The notes beneath the pieces are model-generated. The model was not told the origin of the DNA, did not search any database, and saw only the letters and a list, made by a program, of their open reading frames with translations. Below, one piece after another: positions 2,931 to 13,070 of a stretch of DNA of 52,505 nt. The stretch covers positions 1-52,505 of the forward strand of contig JAAXPZ010000012.1 of the NCBI GenBank assembly GCA_012329065.1. The letters run 5' to 3'. Each line of letters starts with the position of its first letter. The stretch's first letter is position 1. The position numbers were made by a program, and so were the translations under genes. This DNA is from Sulfurovum sp. Lineage in GTDB: Bacteria; Campylobacterota; Campylobacteria; Campylobacterales; Sulfurovaceae.

Positions 2931-3412
2931 TTACTTGTTTACGAGGTCATTAACAATTTCTTTTGACCACTGAGGTAGAGGTGTGTTGAGGATAATATTT
3001 TGTTCACCTCTTGCCCCAGATTTACGAAGTGAAGCAATAAATTTGTAATGGGTTTGAGAATTATCAAACAGATAGAGACCTTTAGCATTTAAAGCTACCT
3101 CTTTAATCTGCTGCATACTTTTGTGATAGCGTCTTACAACAATACCAGGATCAACGAAATGTCCTTTGTTTTGCACTCTTGTACGTACCCTTTGAACATT
3201 AAGTAAGGGGTCACTTAAAGCGATATAGACAATATAAAGTTCATACCCTTTGATCCATTGGGTAAAAAATCGCCAAAAATCTCTTTGGCTATATCGTCAG
3301 GATTTACAAAAGGTAATTTTGAAAGGGTTTTGTATTTGCCGATAAGTTTTCTATATAAAGTAGATTTCCCAGACCCATTTGGACCGGCAAGTAGGAAAAG
3401 TTTTTTTACCAT
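2931..3412 (-). pseudogene. Zeta-like toxin ATPase/kinase with internal deletion
   Basis: The N-terminal part (from 3412) begins MVKKLFLLAGPNGSGKSTLY, a P-loop at residues 10-18, followed by PFVNPDDIAKE, as in zeta-type kinases. It then runs out of frame at about 3240; the rest, KGYELYIVYIALSDPLLNV... RVRTRVQNKGHFVDPGIVVRRY, is the C-terminal half in another frame. The middle of the fold, including the region expected to hold the second substrate-binding arginines and the conserved ETTLS-type motif, is absent. Zeta toxins phosphorylate UDP-N-acetylglucosamine in characterised systems. Here deletion and frameshift should abolish activity. It starts 3 nt after an antitoxin-like gene. Confidence 0.75.
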
Positions 3413-3415
3413 ATT

Positions 3416-3634
3416 TTAGAGATTTACTACCGTTTCATTAAAGTCTTCATCGATTTGCACAGTTTCTTTTGTGCCATTAGGGTAGAGTTTTGTCATGATG
3501 CCATTTGCCATGCCAGACTCTTTAAAGTATGCAGGTATACCATTATGCAAAAGTTCTTTAGTATTGTCATTCATTTCGATACTATGTATATCTTCAAAAA
3601 TAGTTTCGATATCTAGTTCTATTTTTTTAACCAT
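3416..3634 (-). CDS. Putative antitoxin of the zeta-like toxin, 72 aa
   Basis: An intact, acidic 72-aa protein starting MVKKIELDIETIFEDIHSIE and ending in a strand-rich segment (KLYPNGTKETVQIDEDFNET). It directly precedes the toxin remnant on the same strand with only 3 bases between stop and start, the usual antitoxin-first arrangement. I do not recognise the sequence as classical epsilon; the assignment rests on position and size. If the toxin is dead, this gene is a free antitoxin that could still neutralise related toxins. Confidence 0.5.
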   Translation of the reverse strand: MVKKIELDIETIFEDIHSIEMNDNTKELLHNGIPAYFKESGMANGIMTKLYPNGTKETVQIDEDFNETVVNL

Positions 3635-4908: not shown

Positions 4909-6093
4909 TTAGCTGGTTTCCCTCTCATCCAACCACTCACCCCACCACTCCAAAAGCTCTCTCCTCTGTTCCAAATACTTAGCTCTATTGTACGCTTGTG
5001 CCACTTTAGACCCTATCTTGTGAGCCAACTGTACCTCTGACCTCAGATGAAAAATCACTCTTTTCATGGGCAATGGTAGAGAACATAGCACGGAAGCCAT
5101 GAGGGACTATGCGGTCATTGCTGTAGCCTTATAGTAGTACGCAAGGCTTTACCTAGCGTGACATCGCTCATGGGAGCGTTTAGGTCTCTGTTTGAGTAAA
5201 ATATATATTTACCACCTTTGCTAAAGTGCTTGGCTTGTTTGAGTATCTCCATGAGTTGCTGTGAAAGTGGTACTATATGTTCATCGCCTATTTTCATCTT
5301 CTTCCCAGGGATAGTCCATAGCTTTTGCTCAAAGTTTATCTCGTCCCATTCTGCCAAACGGAAATTGCCGGGGCGAATGGCAGAGTAAGCTAAAAAAAGA
5401 AGCCCAAGCCTAACCATGACCCACCCAGTATAGCAATCTATGGCAGATATGAGTTTGCCTATCTCCTTTGGGTCTGTGATGGTAGGGTAGTTTCTACCCG
5501 TTGATTTTTGTAGTACCATACTCCTGTCTATGTCTGCACATGGGTTTCTCTCTGCTTCTCCATGCGAGACTGCAAACTTGAAAACTTTGCTTATCTGTGT
5601 AAAAAGTCTCTTGCCAGACTCTAACGCACCTCTATCTTGTACAGACTTGATGATAGGGATGATTTGCTTGGCTGTTATCTGGTCAATAGGGAGTTCTCCT
5701 ATGATTGGGTTGGCATCTCTTCTGAAAAGGCTTTCTACACCCTCCCAGTATTTTTCGTTACGGTCTGCTTTGTAGTGAGCTAGATAAAGATGTACCATCT
5801 GCGAAAAAGTCTTTTTTTCTTCTATGGTCTCAGCCTTTTCTTTGATGCGAGGGTCCATGCCATTTGCTATCTGTTCTTTAAGCTCATCTCTCTTGAGCCT
5901 TGCCATTTTGAGACTAATGGCAGGGTACTCACCTATACTAAGTCGTGTACGTTTACCCTCTATGGTACACCGCAACCTCCAAAGTTTTGAACCTGTAGGT
6001 TTGACTTCTAGCTGTAAAGCTTCCACCATCGTTAAGTGTCTTAGTCTTGGTAGATGCTTTTTCTGATCTTACTTTCGTATCGGTCAATAACAT
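4909..6093 (-). pseudogene. int: P4-type tyrosine integrase, broken by three indels
   Basis: The start MLLTDTKVRSEKASTKTKTL (6093) is the DUF4102 N-terminal arm. Frame changes follow: (1) one extra base in the A-run 6016-6018, after which VKPTGSKLWRLR and LSIGEYPAISL continue; (2) one extra base near 5129-5130, just before GYSNDRIVPHGFRAM (the H-x-x-R motif); (3) a 7-bp near-duplication at 5034-5047, before QLAHKIGSKVAQAYNRAKYL with the catalytic Tyr. All catalytic boxes can be found across the three frames, so the gene was intact until recently. It lies with its start 130 bp from the tmRNA 3' end, as for elements that use ssrA as target. Confidence 0.9.
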
Positions 6094-6222: not shown

Positions 6223-6621
6223 TGGTGGAGATGAGGGGAATTGAACCCCTGTCCTAAAATAGCTAGAACTATGACTCTACATGCTTAGTCAGTGTTGTTA
6301 ATTTTAATTAGGTTTTGTACTACACTCAAAACTTTGCCTAACGAGCTAGAATTCTCACACCATGGCATAACTTCCATGGAGCATAGTCACCAGATGTGAT
6401 ACCCAAGGTGCAAGCACCCCCAAATAAATGGGCTCCGATTAAGATGACACTCCTCGGTAGGGCAGTCCTCCGACGAATCGGGGTTAATGACTTACGCTAC
6501 TGCGTAAGCTGGACGGTAATCTGTGTTGTTTGCGTTTAAATGCGTTTGAGCCGCGTAACGGAATTGCTCAGTCCGACATGCACATAGCCCCGACTACTCC
6601 AGTCGAAACCAAGTCATCCCC
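6223..6621 (-). ncRNA. ssrA: Transfer-messenger RNA (tmRNA)
   Basis: The 5' end GGGGATGACTTGGTTTCGACT (6621 downward) pairs with the 3' end TCATCTCCACCA (to 6223) in the tRNA-like acceptor stem, and the T-arm GGTTCAAATTCCCC-like sequence is present with an encoded CCA. The internal reading frame, 6492-6533 on the minus strand, gives the tag ANNTDYRPAYAVA followed by TAA; the preceding sequence supplies the resume codon GCA. tmRNA with SmpB rescues stalled ribosomes and tags nascent proteins for proteolysis. Length, 399 nt, is normal. It has its own promoter at 6710-6738. Its 3' end is the insertion point of the island to the left and is still complete. Confidence 0.96.
6230..6245. repeat. Right end (att) copy in the ssrA 3' end
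   Basis: The second copy of the 16-bp direct repeat also found at 2081-2096. It covers part of the T-arm/acceptor region of the tmRNA, the usual crossover segment for P4-type integrases. The element therefore rebuilt the gene's 3' end on integration, leaving ssrA intact. Confidence 0.75.
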
Positions 6622-6709: not shown

Positions 6710-6738
6710 ATAATAGCACTTTTGTGTTTCTTTGTCAA
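6710..6738 (-). promoter_or_regulatory. Strong sigma-70 promoter of ssrA
   Basis: On the minus strand TTGACA (6738-6733) is followed after exactly 17 bases by TATTAT (6715-6710). Transcription would start near 6703, about 80 nt before the mature tmRNA 5' end, leaving a leader to be trimmed. The -35 box overlaps the last codons of the lysE-type gene, so ssrA has a promoter of its own inside the end of the preceding operon. A consensus -35 is unusual in Campylobacterota and fits a highly expressed stable RNA. Confidence 0.75.
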
Positions 6739-7334
6739 GAGAACAATCTATACAGCATCCCAAGTGCAAAAAAGGAGAGTAAGGCAGCAGAGACAATAGA
6801 GATAATCGTAACTGCTCTCTGAGATAACAAATGTTTAGTCTTGTGTATCAGTAGTGGCATCAGTGTGATCCATAGCAGTATGCCAGAGAACATTCCCACT
6901 ACAGTAAAGACCGTATCTAGTTGTCTAGTTTGAATATAGACAGATACACTGATCCAGAAAACTATAGTATAAGGGTTTAGCAGAGTTAGAGAAAGTCCCT
7001 TAAAATAGTTTGGCAAAATAGCTGTACGGATCTCCTTGGACAAGTGTATCTCTTCGTGCCTTGCTTTGAAAATCATCCATGCCATGTAGAGCAAAAATAC
7101 TGAACCTACTAAGCCCAAAACAAACATCACTGTGGGATTTTTGACAAATGCCATCATCCCAAACAGTATAGCCAGCAGATAAATAGTATCAGCACTCATC
7201 GCCCCAAAACCTATCGCTACAGCACCTGGATAGTTCCGCAAGGCATTGGACATGATAAGAATATTGATTGGGCCTAGAGGAATCGCTGCTCCTAATCCAA
7301 ATAGGAATCCTTCTACTAGTGAGATCCAAATCAT
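6735..7334 (-). CDS. LysE/RhtB-family exporter
   Basis: A 199-aa inner-membrane protein with about six hydrophobic helices. The N-terminus MIWISLVEGFLFGLGAAIPLGPINILI carries the family signature G...PGP-like motif (AIPLGPINI), and GLSLTLLNPYTIVFWISV is the second conserved half-motif (LNP). The family exports amino acids or related small metabolites by proton antiport; the substrate cannot be read from sequence. It is the last gene of a four-gene operon: its start overlaps the previous stop by 4 nt. Placement after an activase/dehydratase-like pair suggests it may export a product or a toxic intermediate of that pair, which is inference. Confidence 0.85.
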   Translation of the reverse strand: MIWISLVEGFLFGLGAAIPLGPINILIMSNALRNYPGAVAIGFGAMSADTIYLLAILFGMMAFVKNPTVMFVLGLVGSVFLLYMAWMIFKARHEEIHLSKEIRTAILPNYFKGLSLTLLNPYTIVFWISVSVYIQTRQLDTVFTVVGMFSGILLWITLMPLLIHKTKHLLSQRAVTIISIVSAALLSFFALGMLYRLFS

Positions 7335-8842
7335 CGAGATATCTTCAGTGCATCTAGCAACTTTGCAGCTGTACCAGTCTTGTCACTTTTAGGGGCATAT
7401 GAAAAATCATGTGCTTTTTCTGATACGCTTTCGACCATCTCTAGTGATTCAAACTCCTCTTTGGCAGCTTGTTTTGCTTTAAATAGTGCCATCTGCACAC
7501 GGGAATAAAAGTTTGCAGCTCCCTCACCTGATGTTTCAATACTCAGAAAATTGGCTTCTGGATATCTTGATACCACAAGTGACTGAATACCGTCAGAGAT
7601 AGCTGATGAAGGCATACAGCCAAAAGGCTTAACTGATATAACCATATGTGAGAGTTTATGTTTGAGGCTCTCAAGTAGGTGCGAAACCTCCATATGTCCC
7701 TCTCCTCCATCTACATCCAGAGGAAAGTACTCCTTGCCCAATCTAGCAAGCTTCTCAATATCTGGCAGCTTATACCCGCTAAGTCCTATCATTTTGGCAT
7801 ATAGTGCAAACTGAACCTTAAATGCAGTTCGAAACAGCCCCATAAGTATCTTTCTCTTGGGTGTACTAAAATCCAGATACCCTGTGCCAGAATCTGTACT
7901 AAGTCCTGATTTTTGATCCTCAAAATACATATATTCCCACATACTTAACAATAGGCGGTTCATAATCGGCTGAGGAATCACCTCTGCACCTTCTGACTCC
8001 AAAAATCTGTGCAGGTTGTAGTTGCCCTCTCCTTCTGTCATAGCTGCCCAAAATTCACCTATTATCATTACTTTTGGCTTTGGGGTAAGCCTATTGAGCT
8101 TGACTCTCTTGAGTACTTGCCTGCACCTATATAATGCCAATGTAAGACTCTTGCGATTCTCTAGGGCTACACTAAGGATATCATAGCAATCCTGCATGGC
8201 TCTATCTACTGCACCTACCTCTACTTCATAAGGTCTCATCTGATGAGTCAATAGGGTCAGTATATCTCCTGCCATGGCAGCCTTGACTGGTCTAATGAAA
8301 AAAGAGGGAGGGAACTGAAGAGTATCTTCTCCCTCAGTGTTCGTAACCCTATTGTGCTCAAAGCTCATCAGCCTAAAGCCCTTGAAGCCTGCATCGTTGA
8401 GTGCTTTTCTATACTCTGTAATATACATACCAAATCTACAAGGTCCACAACCGCTAGCTGTCACATATACATACTTTTGCACAATCTCTTCAGCGGACAT
8501 TCCACTGTTTTTTTGTACTTCAAGGAGATATTTGACAAGGTTTCCAACTGTAAAATAGGTAGGATTGCACTGCCCTCTGTTACCATATGCCTTTCCTGTA
8601 CGGAATGAATCAAAATCTGGATTAGGAAGTGCTATGTACTGCTCTTTCATTGACTTTACTGCGGACATAAGTAGTTTATCTTGAAGTATTGTCAAGCCAC
8701 CAAATAGTATGATGCTATTTTGACTATCCTCGTATGTAAATTTGCTAGGAATCTCTTCACGCCATTGAGATATCTCAGAATTGATAAAATCTAAATTTCC
8801 ATTGCTTTGAGTTCTTTTTATGTTAGCACAAGATATACTCAT
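7331..8842 (-). CDS. 2-hydroxyacyl-CoA dehydratase-like (HgdB/DUF2229-related) iron-sulfur protein
   Basis: 503 aa, soluble. Cysteines expected to bind a cluster are C92 (RGQCNPTYF), C132 and C135 (TASGCGPCRFGMY) and C409 (VKPFGCMPSS); VMIIGEFWA (about 258-266) resembles the second Rossmann-like half of dehydratase B/C subunits. In many bacteria this segment is fused to the C-terminus of the large activase encoded immediately upstream; here it is a separate gene with a 4-nt overlap at both ends. The family uses an ATP-charged electron from the activase for difficult reductions or dehydrations. No canonical HgdA/HgdB pair, CoA-transferase or substrate enzyme is nearby, so the substrate is unknown. 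The double-cubane-cluster proteins are related alternatives. Confidence 0.75.
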   Translation of the reverse strand: MSISCANIKRTQSNGNLDFINSEISQWREEIPSKFTYEDSQNSIILFGGLTILQDKLLMSAVKSMKEQYIALPNPDFDSFRTGKAYGNRGQCNPTYFTVGNLVKYLLEVQKNSGMSAEEIVQKYVYVTASGCGPCRFGMYITEYRKALNDAGFKGFRLMSFEHNRVTNTEGEDTLQFPPSFFIRPVKAAMAGDILTLLTHQMRPYEVEVGAVDRAMQDCYDILSVALENRKSLTLALYRCRQVLKRVKLNRLTPKPKVMIIGEFWAAMTEGEGNYNLHRFLESEGAEVIPQPIMNRLLLSMWEYMYFEDQKSGLSTDSGTGYLDFSTPKRKILMGLFRTAFKVQFALYAKMIGLSGYKLPDIEKLARLGKEYFPLDVDGGEGHMEVSHLLESLKHKLSHMVISVKPFGCMPSSAISDGIQSLVVSRYPEANFLSIETSGEGAANFYSRVQMALFKAKQAAKEEFESLEMVESVSEKAHDFSYAPKSDKTGTAAKLLDALKISR

Positions 8843-11800
8843 ATTAAAACCTCCTGCTTGTTTTGCTTGAATACTGCACTCTCTTCACTGTGTACTGTAT
8901 CCCAACTAAAAGATTTCTGCCAGCTATTTTTGGATAATTGACCAGAAGCTATCTCTTGTGCATATTGCTCAAGTGCGTATGCAAAGGTTTTGACTCTGAT
9001 CTTTATCGATCCGCTAGGTTTGTTGGCATCTATATCATGTAGTGTCAAGTGCGGGGTTTTGCTGGCTCCCAGTATCTTATCAATAATAGCATAAGTTGGG
9101 GCATCATGTCCACATTTGAATGAACTCAAATCTACAACTGCTATATTTGGATGTCGTGCAGCAAACTTGGCGACCCATACCTTCTGAGCAGAATTGGTAG
9201 AGAAATTCTCTGGCCATACATCCCTGATATCATATACTGACTCAATATGTCCTGCTGCTATATCCTGATGAAAATATCTCATCAAATACTCTTCGTCTTT
9301 GGGTATGGATGCTACAGAAAGTGTTTTAAACCCAAGCGACTGAAACTCATCCAGTATCTCATGATTGATGCCAGGGTCAGAGTGGTATGGGCGACCTAGT
9401 AATAGGAGTACCACCTCGTCCTGCCTCTGTGCGATATCCAATATCTCTCTGCCCTGCTGCATCATCTGCTTTTCGTGTGCCTCTAGATACTCCCATGCCC
9501 TATCTGCTGCCCAGTCATTCTCATCTTTGCTGATTTCTAGCCTTGAAAACCAAGTATCATAAAGCTGCCTCTTAAGAAGTTCGATATTATCAAAATGTAA
9601 AGAGCCATCTAAATACTCGACTCCTTTTTGTGCAAATATGTCTCTTTCCTTGACAAATGCTGACCAAACCACTCTGGGAGTACCCGATATGATAGGACAG
9701 GCGGTTTGCCCTAGCGTATGCTCTAAAAATCCTGGCAAATGAGTCAACGCTGGAAACCAAATATAATCTATAGCTTGTCTGACATATTTTTTATGGTGTA
9801 ACAATGCATAAACATGTGATTGGGCTACCTTGGCAGGATAACATGGATCTACAGAACCGTATTTTGCGCCTTCTAGATACATATCTTCATTGGAGTATCC
9901 AGAAAAGATGATATGTTTGGACTGCACTCCAAGTGCCTCCAGATATGCTCTAAGAAATGGGGCTACAGAATAAATACTCAGTACCTGTGGAATGGCTATC
10001 TTGATCTGCTCTCTTTTACTCCTTGAATCTACTGAACTTGTTTCAAAGCTTCTGCTAACTTCTCTCCTGATAGTAGGTCCCCATCCGCCTAATAATACCT
10101 TGGATTGCCACTCTTTAATAAGTGTATCAGATGTCGGAAATTCAAAACTATCTCCCGTAGAAGAGAATAATGTTTTTGCCTCAAATTTGACTAGATTTGG
10201 TACAGATTTTTGAAGAGCCTTTCTCTTGTTTTTTATTTCTACAAATGCCTCTGGAGACTCCACCGTACCATCTTCACACGAGAAACCAGCAATATATCTA
10301 ACAGTATCTGAAGAAGGTGTTTGTGTATCTATGAATGTTCTAGAGCAGTCCATAGGACAAAAGTGACACCTTGTGCTTTCATCTGTTCTTGAAGTGTAGG
10401 TCATCTGTATCGCCTCTTCTAGACCGACAAAGCTACACTCACCTTTGGCAACAACTGTATCTAGTGCTTCCAGAGCAGCACCTATCGCACCTGCTTCACC
10501 AGGATGCGGATGCACATCAACTCTTGCATCTGGGACTCTCTCTAAGATATAGTCAACTTGTGCTTTTAGTGCTGCTTGATTGTATTGAGTGCCGCCCTGT
10601 AATACAAAATGATTTCCAAAAATAGCTAGATTTGGGGCCTGTACCACATATTGCCATACATTTTTTGGCAGAACCTTGGCAATGCCTGCAAATAGTTCCT
10701 CCTTGGCATAACCCTCTTTTTGGAAATTAACCCTATCTGTATCCAAAAATACTGCACAGCCGTAGTTGAATTTAGGTGCTTGCTTGGCAGCAAATGCCAC
10801 CTCAGCAAAGTTCTCCACTGGCACGCCAAACTGCTTTGCCATGCTTTGCAAAAGTGTGCCATTGCCTGCACTGCATTGATTGGATAGGCGAAAGTTTTTC
10901 ATCATGCCATTTTCCAAAAAGAGCACTTTTATATCCTGTCCACCTATATCACATATGACATTAATGCTCTTGCCAAATATATACTGTGCACTCTTCATAT
11001 GAGCGATTGTCTCTATGATATTGACATCAGCCTTGAGTGCCCCCTTAAGCACATCAGCTGCATATCCAGTCACTCCCAGACCTCTGATATCATAATATCC
11101 ATTGGGGTCTTGGGATTTTATCTGGTTTAGCAGATCTACCGTATCCTCTATTGGGTTTCCTTTGGAGAGGCGATACACCTTCAGCAATAGTTGCCCTCGC
11201 TCATCAACCAAAACTGCTTTTGATGATGTAGAGCCACCATCAATACCCAAAATGCAGGTTGTTTTTTGTCTTAGCTCAGGAGAAACAAAAGAATCAATAG
11301 TATATTTTTTTCTAAACTTCTCTAACTCATCATCTGAGCTGACAAGAGGAGCATCGCTATTGTCATCTTGATTGACACCTTGAGTATCTACTAGCACCTG
11401 TAACTGCTGTAAGCCTATAAAATCATATCCCGATATCTCTTCACCTTTGCCAAATATCACAGCACCTAAGGCTGCATAGTATTGTGCATTGTCTGGTACA
11501 AGTACAAGATTGTCAAGCTCTCTAGCATCATACTCTATCTCTCTCTCGGTCCAAAGTTTAGATATTCTTTCTCTCCATGCCTCTTGCAAAAACGGTAGAT
11601 AAGTATTTGGGCCTCCAAGCAGAAGTACTTTTGGCATGAGTGTATTGCCACGGGTTAGTACTGTAAGGTTTTGCATGACGATTGCGTCTGCTAGAGAATT
11701 CATTATCTCATCACTAGGCACGGAACTTTTGACTAGATTGACGATATCCGTCTCAGCAAATACGCCACATTTTGCAGCAACATGATGTAGTTTATCAGAC

Positions 11801-12282
11801 TTAAATGTCAAGCTTTGAAGCTCTTCTGTCTCCATGCCAACCTTCATAGTACACTTCTCTATCGTGGCTCCTGTGCCTGATGCACACTTATCATTCATGG
11901 AAGTAAGGACTGTTTTTTTGCCCTCTTTATCTTCTTTGAAATGAATGATTTTAGCATCCTGTCCTCCCAATTCTATGACTGACCTAACATCTGGATATAG
12001 ATGCTCAACAGCAAGTACTACAGCATTGACCTCTTGGACAAATCTAGCATTGAGTGCTGGAGCAATTCGCGTAGCACCAGATCCTGTAATATACACTTGA
12101 TCTATGTTTTCAAATTCTTCTGCATTTCTTTGGGAAAGCACTTCAAGTATATTGAGTAATGTGGCGGCTTGCCTGGTGTCATGTGCAGTGTAAGACTTGG
12201 CTATAATGTTGAATTTTTCATCACAGAGCACAAACTTGACTGTAGTAGAGCCTACATCAACCCCTAGAGAGTATTGTGTCAT
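8839..12282 (-). CDS. Large double-ASKHA acyl-CoA dehydratase activase (BcrAD/BadFG + DUF2229)
   Basis: 1147 aa with two tandem BadF/BadG/BcrA/BcrD ATPase domains (about 6-280 and 345-610). Each has the phosphate motif (GVDVGSTTVK at 7-16; GIDGGSTSSK at 347-355), the second (IELGGQDAKI; CDIGGQDIKV) and a cysteine pair 39 residues apart: C133/C172 and C470/C509, the spacing of the cluster ligands in HgdC-type activators, where two monomers share one [4Fe-4S]. The tandem could form this dimer within one chain. A CHFCPMDC motif (639-646) and a DUF2229-type region (about 720-1040) follow. The protein is expected to drive electrons by ATP hydrolysis into its partner, encoded next. Stop and start overlaps with lgt and the partner are 4 nt each. 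Confidence 0.85.
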   Translation of the reverse strand: MTQYSLGVDVGSTTVKFVLCDEKFNIIAKSYTAHDTRQAATLLNILEVLSQRNAEEFENIDQVYITGSGATRIAPALNARFVQEVNAVVLAVEHLYPDVRSVIELGGQDAKIIHFKEDKEGKKTVLTSMNDKCASGTGATIEKCTMKVGMETEELQSLTFKSDKLHHVAAKCGVFAETDIVNLVKSSVPSDEIMNSLADAIVMQNLTVLTRGNTLMPKVLLLGGPNTYLPFLQEAWRERISKLWTEREIEYDARELDNLVLVPDNAQYYAALGAVIFGKGEEISGYDFIGLQQLQVLVDTQGVNQDDNSDAPLVSSDDELEKFRKKYTIDSFVSPELRQKTTCILGIDGGSTSSKAVLVDERGQLLLKVYRLSKGNPIEDTVDLLNQIKSQDPNGYYDIRGLGVTGYAADVLKGALKADVNIIETIAHMKSAQYIFGKSINVICDIGGQDIKVLFLENGMMKNFRLSNQCSAGNGTLLQSMAKQFGVPVENFAEVAFAAKQAPKFNYGCAVFLDTDRVNFQKEGYAKEELFAGIAKVLPKNVWQYVVQAPNLAIFGNHFVLQGGTQYNQAALKAQVDYILERVPDARVDVHPHPGEAGAIGAALEALDTVVAKGECSFVGLEEAIQMTYTSRTDESTRCHFCPMDCSRTFIDTQTPSSDTVRYIAGFSCEDGTVESPEAFVEIKNKRKALQKSVPNLVKFEAKTLFSSTGDSFEFPTSDTLIKEWQSKVLLGGWGPTIRREVSRSFETSSVDSRSKREQIKIAIPQVLSIYSVAPFLRAYLEALGVQSKHIIFSGYSNEDMYLEGAKYGSVDPCYPAKVAQSHVYALLHHKKYVRQAIDYIWFPALTHLPGFLEHTLGQTACPIISGTPRVVWSAFVKERDIFAQKGVEYLDGSLHFDNIELLKRQLYDTWFSRLEISKDENDWAADRAWEYLEAHEKQMMQQGREILDIAQRQDEVVLLLLGRPYHSDPGINHEILDEFQSLGFKTLSVASIPKDEEYLMRYFHQDIAAGHIESVYDIRDVWPENFSTNSAQKVWVAKFAARHPNIAVVDLSSFKCGHDAPTYAIIDKILGASKTPHLTLHDIDANKPSGSIKIRVKTFAYALEQYAQEIASGQLSKNSWQKSFSWDTVHSEESAVFKQNKQEVLI

Positions 12283-13070
12283 CTATTGTCTTTTGAGGAT
12301 AAAAAAATTGCCCATAGAGTCCAGAGTAAACCTAATATCACAAACGGCACACTAAGCATCTGCCCTACTGTCAAAGGTACAATTGTGTTATAGTCTGCCT
12401 GTTCTGTTTTAGTATATTCTATCAAGAACCTAGCACCAAATAACAATAAGAGAAAGACTCCAGGAAGTATCTTTGTAGCAAAATCAAAACTTGCCTTGCG
12501 ATAAATCCACAATAAGATAAGTAAAATTATCAAGTATGCTGATGCCTCGTATAGTTGGACTGGATGCCTAGGCAGATTGTCAACACGAGCAAAGATAACT
12601 GCCCACGGCTTAGTGGTCTCAAGTCCAAGAATTTCTGAATTGAAAAAATTTCCTATTCGCACAAAAGCTGCTGTGACCATGCCTGCTATGGCGACTCTTG
12701 ATAGAAGCCATACAAAATCTTTCTTGTATCTTTTAGAGAACATATAAAGAGCCAAGATAGCACCCAACATACCCCCATGACTTGCCAGTCCTCCTTTCCA
12801 TACATAAAGAATCTCTACGGGGTTACTAAGATAGTAATCAGGCTCATAGGCAAAGCAGTGCATAAGTCTAGCTCCAACCACCACTCCCACAACAATATAG
12901 ATAAGAAAATTGTCCAAGACCTTTGGGTCTTTACCTTCTCTTTTATATATCCATTGCATAATAGCCAGACCTATAAAAAAAGATCCGACAAAGAGTACCC
13001 CATACCATCGAAGCTGCAAGGCACCAAACTTTAAGATATTGGGGTCTATATCCCAGACAAAATATTCCAT
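12279..13070 (-). CDS. lgt: Phosphatidylglycerol-prolipoprotein diacylglyceryl transferase
   Basis: 263-aa polytopic inner-membrane enzyme that attaches diacylglycerol to the lipobox cysteine of prolipoproteins. Visible motifs are LRWYGVLFVG, GGLASHGGMLGA (active-site His region), the Lgt signature VRIGNFFNSEILG and HPVQLYEA; seven hydrophobic segments and normal length. The ATG at 13070 has AAAGG 10 nt upstream. It is the first gene of the operon continuing into the activase, a link with no obvious metabolic logic. Substrate lipoproteins in this window include the PqiC-like protein and the CAP-domain lipoprotein. Confidence 0.95.
   Translation of the reverse strand: MEYFVWDIDPNILKFGALQLRWYGVLFVGSFFIGLAIMQWIYKREGKDPKVLDNFLIYIVVGVVVGARLMHCFAYEPDYYLSNPVEILYVWKGGLASHGGMLGAILALYMFSKRYKKDFVWLLSRVAIAGMVTAAFVRIGNFFNSEILGLETTKPWAVIFARVDNLPRHPVQLYEASAYLIILLILLWIYRKASFDFATKILPGVFLLLLFGARFLIEYTKTEQADYNTIVPLTVGQMLSVPFVILGLLWTLWAIFLSSKDNR

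Follow-up and report, generated by a model that had tools for sequence, protein, structure and literature searches.

Gene organisation and domain architecture of the locus

The window, a stretch of 52,505 nucleotides from Sulfurovum sp. (contig JAAXPZ010000012.1), carries four minus-strand genes in a row which are joined by successive 4-bp overlaps. The gene lgt (12279..13070), encoding a prolipoprotein diacylglyceryl transferase, overlaps plsA (8839..12282; 1147 aa), which in turn is followed by plsR (7331..8842; 503 aa) and by the gene of a LysE-type exporter (6735..7334). PlsA and PlsR both belong to a group of sequences which we call clade W. The LysE-type exporter was considered as a part of the system and rejected; because lysE adjoins lgt as its native neighbour in relatives without pls genes, it probably stands outside the system.

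A Pfam scan places two BcrAD_BadFG domains (PF01869), both above the curated cut-off, and a DUF2229 domain (PF09989) in the 1147-aa protein, and clade W relatives show the same architecture. ASKHA domain 1 (aa 1-285; 11428..12282) contains the cluster cysteines C133 and C172, and its nearest solved sequences are MbdP/MbdQ, while ASKHA domain 2 (aa 340-612; 10447..11265) contains C470 and C509 and is nearest to HgdC (1hux). They are followed by an invariant motif, C639-x2-C642-x3-C646 and C669 (10276..10368), as a putative extra cluster site, and by DUF2229 (9310..10002) in the reductase half, with C814 and C862 inside the domain and C1057 beyond it. PlsR, the putative second reductase subunit, has C92, C132xxC135 and C409. 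The first-pass annotation of this DNA had described two full ASKHA domains in a single chain, and indeed both open reading frames and both domains are present. Such a chain is the normal architecture of PlsA and Ger proteins and not special to this genome.

In a profile search the whole genome yielded no PF01869 match beyond the window PlsA, no HGD-D protein (PF06050) and no CoA-transferase (PF01144), which extends to the entire genome the earlier remark that neither an HgdA/HgdB-type pair nor a CoA-transferase is located nearby.

Fold of PlsA and PlsR

With the model of PlsA (pLDDT 86, pTM 0.76) the fold search puts HgdC, HadI, MbdP/Q and DCCP-R in the first ten places. PlsA has in common with these activases the ASKHA fold, a motif of the MNDKCA-G-TG type and the cysteine pair 39 residues apart; in the alignment to 1hux the HgdC pair falls on C127/C166, also 39 apart, so that the HgdC-like spacing noticed before is correct. 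In contrast to them PlsA is not a separate homodimeric protein but consists of two non-identical activase halves in one 1147-aa chain, fused to a reductase module.

For the AlphaFold2 model of PlsR (pLDDT 82, pTM 0.84) the 17 best PDB fold matches are all subunits of double-cubane proteins (DCCP), 3-methylbenzoyl-CoA reductase (Mbd), BzdNO or HadBC with E-values of 2e-4 to 6e-3. The next match (E 0.14) is unrelated, and the TM of the superfamily matches is only about 0.4. These matches came from the fold search only, as sequence and profile searches with PlsR and with the C-terminal half of PlsA including DUF2229 found no match to HGD-D (PF06050) or to HAD, BCR and DCCP proteins of solved structure. 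Between the C-terminal half of PlsA and PlsR there is a distant likeness (hhalign E 2e-4, probability 46), in which C814 of PlsA lies opposite C92 of PlsR, a pairing that one would expect if they were the two halves of a HAD/BCR-like reductase. The likeness to HgdAB/HadBC, BcrBC/BzdNO/MbdNO and DCCP thus comprises the fold of PlsR and this distant symmetry, but it does not reach the sequence level, and acyl-CoA genes are absent from the gene context.

A single-chain activase whose two cluster-binding ASKHA halves feed a partner of the dehydratase/reductase type, much as had been proposed from the first inspection, is supported by the domains, the invariant cysteines and the fold. PlsA, however, combines this activase with a C-terminal half that is itself a module of the reductase type.

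Conserved cysteines

In an alignment of 48 PlsA sequences from many phyla all 11 cysteines of catalytic type are invariant. Four of them form the pairs C133/C172 and C470/C509, 39 residues apart, to which the first-pass annotation had already pointed and which, because of their invariance in so many phyla, are not there by chance; the other seven (C639, C642, C646, C669, C814, C862 and C1057) had been missed. Of the four PlsR cysteines named at that time, C92, C135 and C409 do not vary among 46 sequences. C132 occurs in 29 of 30 sequences of the window's clade but in only one of 16 canonical ones, and is therefore a mark of the clade rather than a ligand of the superfamily. At position 474 of PlsA, on the other hand, all canonical sequences (17/17) have a cysteine and clade W has none. 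Clade W is therefore characterized by a cysteine signature of its own, a CxxC in PlsR and the lack of C474 in PlsA.

Relation to known plsA-plsR loci

In Clostridium perfringens, PlsA/PlsR (CPE1194/1195) is the two-gene plasmalogen synthase of anaerobes and has been described as a member of the HAD family that has two modules for activation and two for reduction (PMC12838417; review PMC9702350). Ether lipids are made by this pair and by PlsA from Lactococcus, Enterococcus and Bifidobacterium (PMC12838417). A homologue of PlsA from Thermotoga maritima and Desulfatibacillum alkenivorans, the glycerol ester reductase Ger, converts the sn-1 ester to an alkyl ether in E. coli (PMC11150832, PMC13274423). 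The substrates of PlsA/PlsR and Ger are phospholipids, whose acyl ester becomes a vinyl or alkyl ether (PMC9702350, PMC8788747, PMC11150832), which puts the earlier statement that the reaction is unknown out of date.

Window PlsA aligns with loci in Listeria, Fusobacterium, Acetoanaerobium, Collinsella and Haliovirga in a single piece covering 96-99% (E 1e-95 to 1e-118), and what comes after it at these loci, be it the rest of a fused protein or a neighbouring gene, is matched by window PlsR. The loci are either fused or operonic, so that fusion of the two parts in other organisms, as suggested before, does occur; their choice as references rests on annotation and architecture rather than on activity. 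The window pair is accordingly homologous over its full length to named plsA-plsR loci, with the cluster cysteines kept. With the plasmalogen synthases (C. perfringens CPE1194/1195 and the fused forms of Enterococcus, Lactococcus and Listeria) it has in common the domain order, the two-gene layout, all invariant cysteines of PlsA and an alignment from end to end with named loci of this type. As in the PlsA/PlsR ether-lipid reductases, in which PlsR adjoins or is fused to PlsA, the two genes are adjacent here; clade W loci almost always have plsA and plsR side by side, and either gene may come first.

In comparison to the canonical proteins, clade W has the CxxC at C132/C135 of PlsR, lacks the second cysteine of the canonical CxxxC in ASKHA2, is longer, and includes aerobes among its carriers. 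Ger from T. maritima (Tmari_0479) and D. alkenivorans resembles the window protein in being a PlsA homologue with two activase domains (BB), yet it has no known diagnostic motif, and according to the authors PlsA and Ger can not be separated by sequence (PMC13274423, PMC11868695). Two activation domains were reported to correlate with the production of alkyl ethers (PMC13274423). They are present here as in Ger, but canonical clade B sequences align over both domains too.

Phylogeny and distribution of clade W

A tree of 67 PlsA sequences, which left out the validated ones of C. perfringens, T. maritima and D. alkenivorans, places window PlsA in the deep clade W, apart from clades A and B with a support of 100 and a stem of 0.85. 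Identity is 40-75% inside the clade and about 30% to canonical PlsA. Clade B comprises Listeria, Clostridia and Fusobacterium, and window PlsA lies outside this Clostridia/Listeria-type clade.

The relatives in clade W, which were gathered by a collection scan, belong to Sulfurovaceae, Myxococcota (Nannocystis pusilla, Enhygromyxa salina), Bacillus chungangensis, Acidobacteria (Bryobacterales), Ignavibacteria, Phycisphaerae, Fibrobacter, SAR202 and others. The list contains several aerobes. DUF2229 is found in 225 of 380 genomes of the phylum of Nannocystis and Enhygromyxa, mostly in proteins of clade W size, and in 74 of 150 genomes of one acidobacterial family (that of L095). Of the 60 genomes in the window's own family, 21 encode a clade W PlsA. 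Noteworthy here are the breadth of clade W, its distinct cysteine signature and its link to lgt rather than the chain with two ASKHA domains as such.

Some further PlsA groups were seen. In a second tree Myxococcota have further deep clades, and one of PlsA-like proteins from the phylum of Nannocystis (L153, L154, L155, L158) stands outside A, B and W. Some acidobacterial genomes (G302, G714, G740 and relatives) possess two DUF2229 proteins of about 1030-1060 and 1190-1220 aa. Clade A and clade B PlsAR occur together in one genome in Mediterraneibacter (L126; 7995-12401 and 13366-17613, side by side) and in Collinsella (L057, L058); such genomes offer a natural experiment on whether vinyl ethers are the product of one and alkyl ethers that of the other. 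Other families of Campylobacterota (L003-L022) harbour canonical PlsAR, split or fused, of clades A and B, suggesting that the phylum gained the function several times.

Linkage to lgt

In 18 of 19 clade W loci from Campylobacterota lgt is located directly upstream of plsA (7/8 for the loci L043-L050, L049 being without it). Within one genus of the Sulfurovaceae the genomes lacking pls (L208, L209) have the order trpA-lgt-lysE, whereas those with pls (L210, L211, L043) have trpA-lgt'-plsA-plsR-(orf)-lgt(-lysE). The extra lgt' groups with lgts linked to pls and the native copy with those of genomes lacking pls, which indicates that lgt'-plsA-plsR moved as a block. This transfer may reflect a joint function, which is conceivable because Lgt draws on phosphatidylglycerol, a likely substrate of the reductase. 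Alternatively the lgt of the donor may merely have been carried along by recombination, since some genomes without pls (L194, L187) have the same type of lgt.

Outside the Sulfurovaceae lgt lies within 8 kb of clade W pls genes at one locus only, that from Phycisphaerae, where a gene that looks TetR-like by eye separates lgt from plsR-plsA; a TetR-type regulator beside pls has been described in facultative anaerobes (PMC9702350). A general partnership of lgt with clade W was therefore rejected. Clade W neighbourhoods beyond the Sulfurovaceae have nothing in common but plsA and plsR, and Pfam scans of their flanking genes found no lipid gene.

Proposed function and alternatives

For the window pair the architecture, the homology, the invariant cysteines, the fold of PlsR, the operon and the block transfer with lgt are established. 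From this we consider it quite probable that the pair represents a divergent and widespread branch of the PlsA/PlsR-type, ATP-driven reductases which convert lipid esters to ethers and which belong to the superfamily of 2-hydroxyacyl-CoA dehydratases, benzoyl-CoA reductases and double-cubane proteins. Ester-to-ether activity was shown by others for the relatives, and we infer from them that clade W keeps a phospholipid ester as substrate. It would also explain the absence of acyl-CoA degradation genes nearby, as the relatives' reaction takes place on lipids, and with no other PF01869 protein, HGD-D or CoA-transferase in the genome a lipid enzyme fits better than an acyl-CoA one. Against this reading count the low identity of clade W to canonical proteins (about 30% for PlsA, 20-24% for PlsR), its different cysteine signature, the restriction of the lgt linkage mostly to Sulfurovaceae, and a literature search in which no report of ether lipids or plasmalogens in Sulfurovum was found.

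In the proposed mechanism the two ASKHA domains of PlsA would act jointly like the HgdC homodimer and bind a single [4Fe-4S] cluster between C133/C172 and C470/C509. ATP hydrolysis would then drive low-potential electrons into the reductase, which would consist of PlsR and the DUF2229 half of PlsA, and from there onto the carbonyl of the sn-1 acyl ester in a phospholipid, probably PG or PE. The reduced ester would be protonated and lose water to become a vinyl ether, and if it were reduced further an alkyl ether would result. For PlsA/PlsR a chemistry of two successive reductions, a protonation and a dehydration has been proposed (PMC8788747). As product we slightly prefer the alkyl ether, as in Ger, over the vinyl ether. 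Solibacter usitatus has ether lipids without ElbD and possesses PlsAR homologues (PMC10087280), which, leaving the clade membership of these homologues aside, fits an alkyl-ether role; clade W is common in the acidobacterial group of this organism. The first-pass interpretation is thus partly supported, being right about the machine and outdated on the reaction.

The substrate could be a different one. It is quite unlikely, in our opinion, that clade W acts on another acyl ester, e.g. the diacylglyceryl group attached to lipoproteins by Lgt, or the PG pool of Lgt, to yield ether-linked lipoproteins. The 4-bp overlap of lgt and plsA, the block with its own lgt' where sister genomes have trpA-lgt-lysE only, the clustering of this lgt' with other pls-linked copies and the lgt one gene away from plsR-plsA in Phycisphaerae would all agree with it. 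Yet this Phycisphaerae locus is the only one beyond the Sulfurovaceae with lgt within 8 kb, and as L194 and L187 have the same lgt type without pls, lgt' may be simply the native lgt of the donor. The broader view that clade W is a functionally distinct PlsA/Ger branch, also in aerobes, which works with its own Lgt, provides ether lipids for lipoproteins or makes them directly on these, and has a changed set of Fe-S ligands (CxxC of PlsR), appears unlikely to us as well.

An ATP-driven acyl-CoA dehydratase or reductase of the HgdAB/BcrABCD kind for some CoA ester, as implied by the first-pass annotation, would have the superfamily and the cluster architecture in common with the pair. We give it little chance, however, because CoA-transferase and HGD-D are missing in the whole genome and degradation genes nearby, DUF2229 and PlsR do not match HAD/BCR subunits of known structure by sequence, and the relatives with the same domains use lipids. 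A small-molecule reductase similar to the double-cubane proteins, or a system for protein repair or activation, seems very improbable: a double cubane cluster protein is the best fold match of PlsR, and the CxxC of clade W is absent from canonical PlsR, but with a TM of about 0.4 this match is weak, BCR/HAD subunits come close to it in score, and DCCP uses a single-domain activase.

If the ester-to-ether reading is correct, clade W with its members from Myxococcota, the acidobacterial family and Sulfurovaceae would carry the anaerobic route of ester reduction far past the known anaerobes. Which organisms produce ether lipids, and by which route, bears on the lipid divide, on branched GDGTs as palaeoclimate proxies and on the evolution of plasmalogens. 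The cysteine signature can serve as a marker of the clade, and the lgt block offers a directly testable hypothesis.

A probably decayed element beside the tmRNA gene

Beyond the LysE-type gene the window contains a tmRNA gene (6223-6621, minus strand) and beside it an open reading frame for a tyrosine-type integrase (5115-6029, minus strand), the catalytic domain of which is shortened, covering the profile only to position 119 of 172. Few open reading frames above 100 aa are found between 2.0 and 5.1 kb. Together with the truncated integrase this region looks like a decayed element which was integrated at the tmRNA gene. Within it, a short open reading frame with a Walker-A start (FLLAGPNGSGKST) adjoins one of 72 aa (3215-3412 and 3416-3634, minus strand), and the two look like relics of a zeta-type toxin/antitoxin pair.
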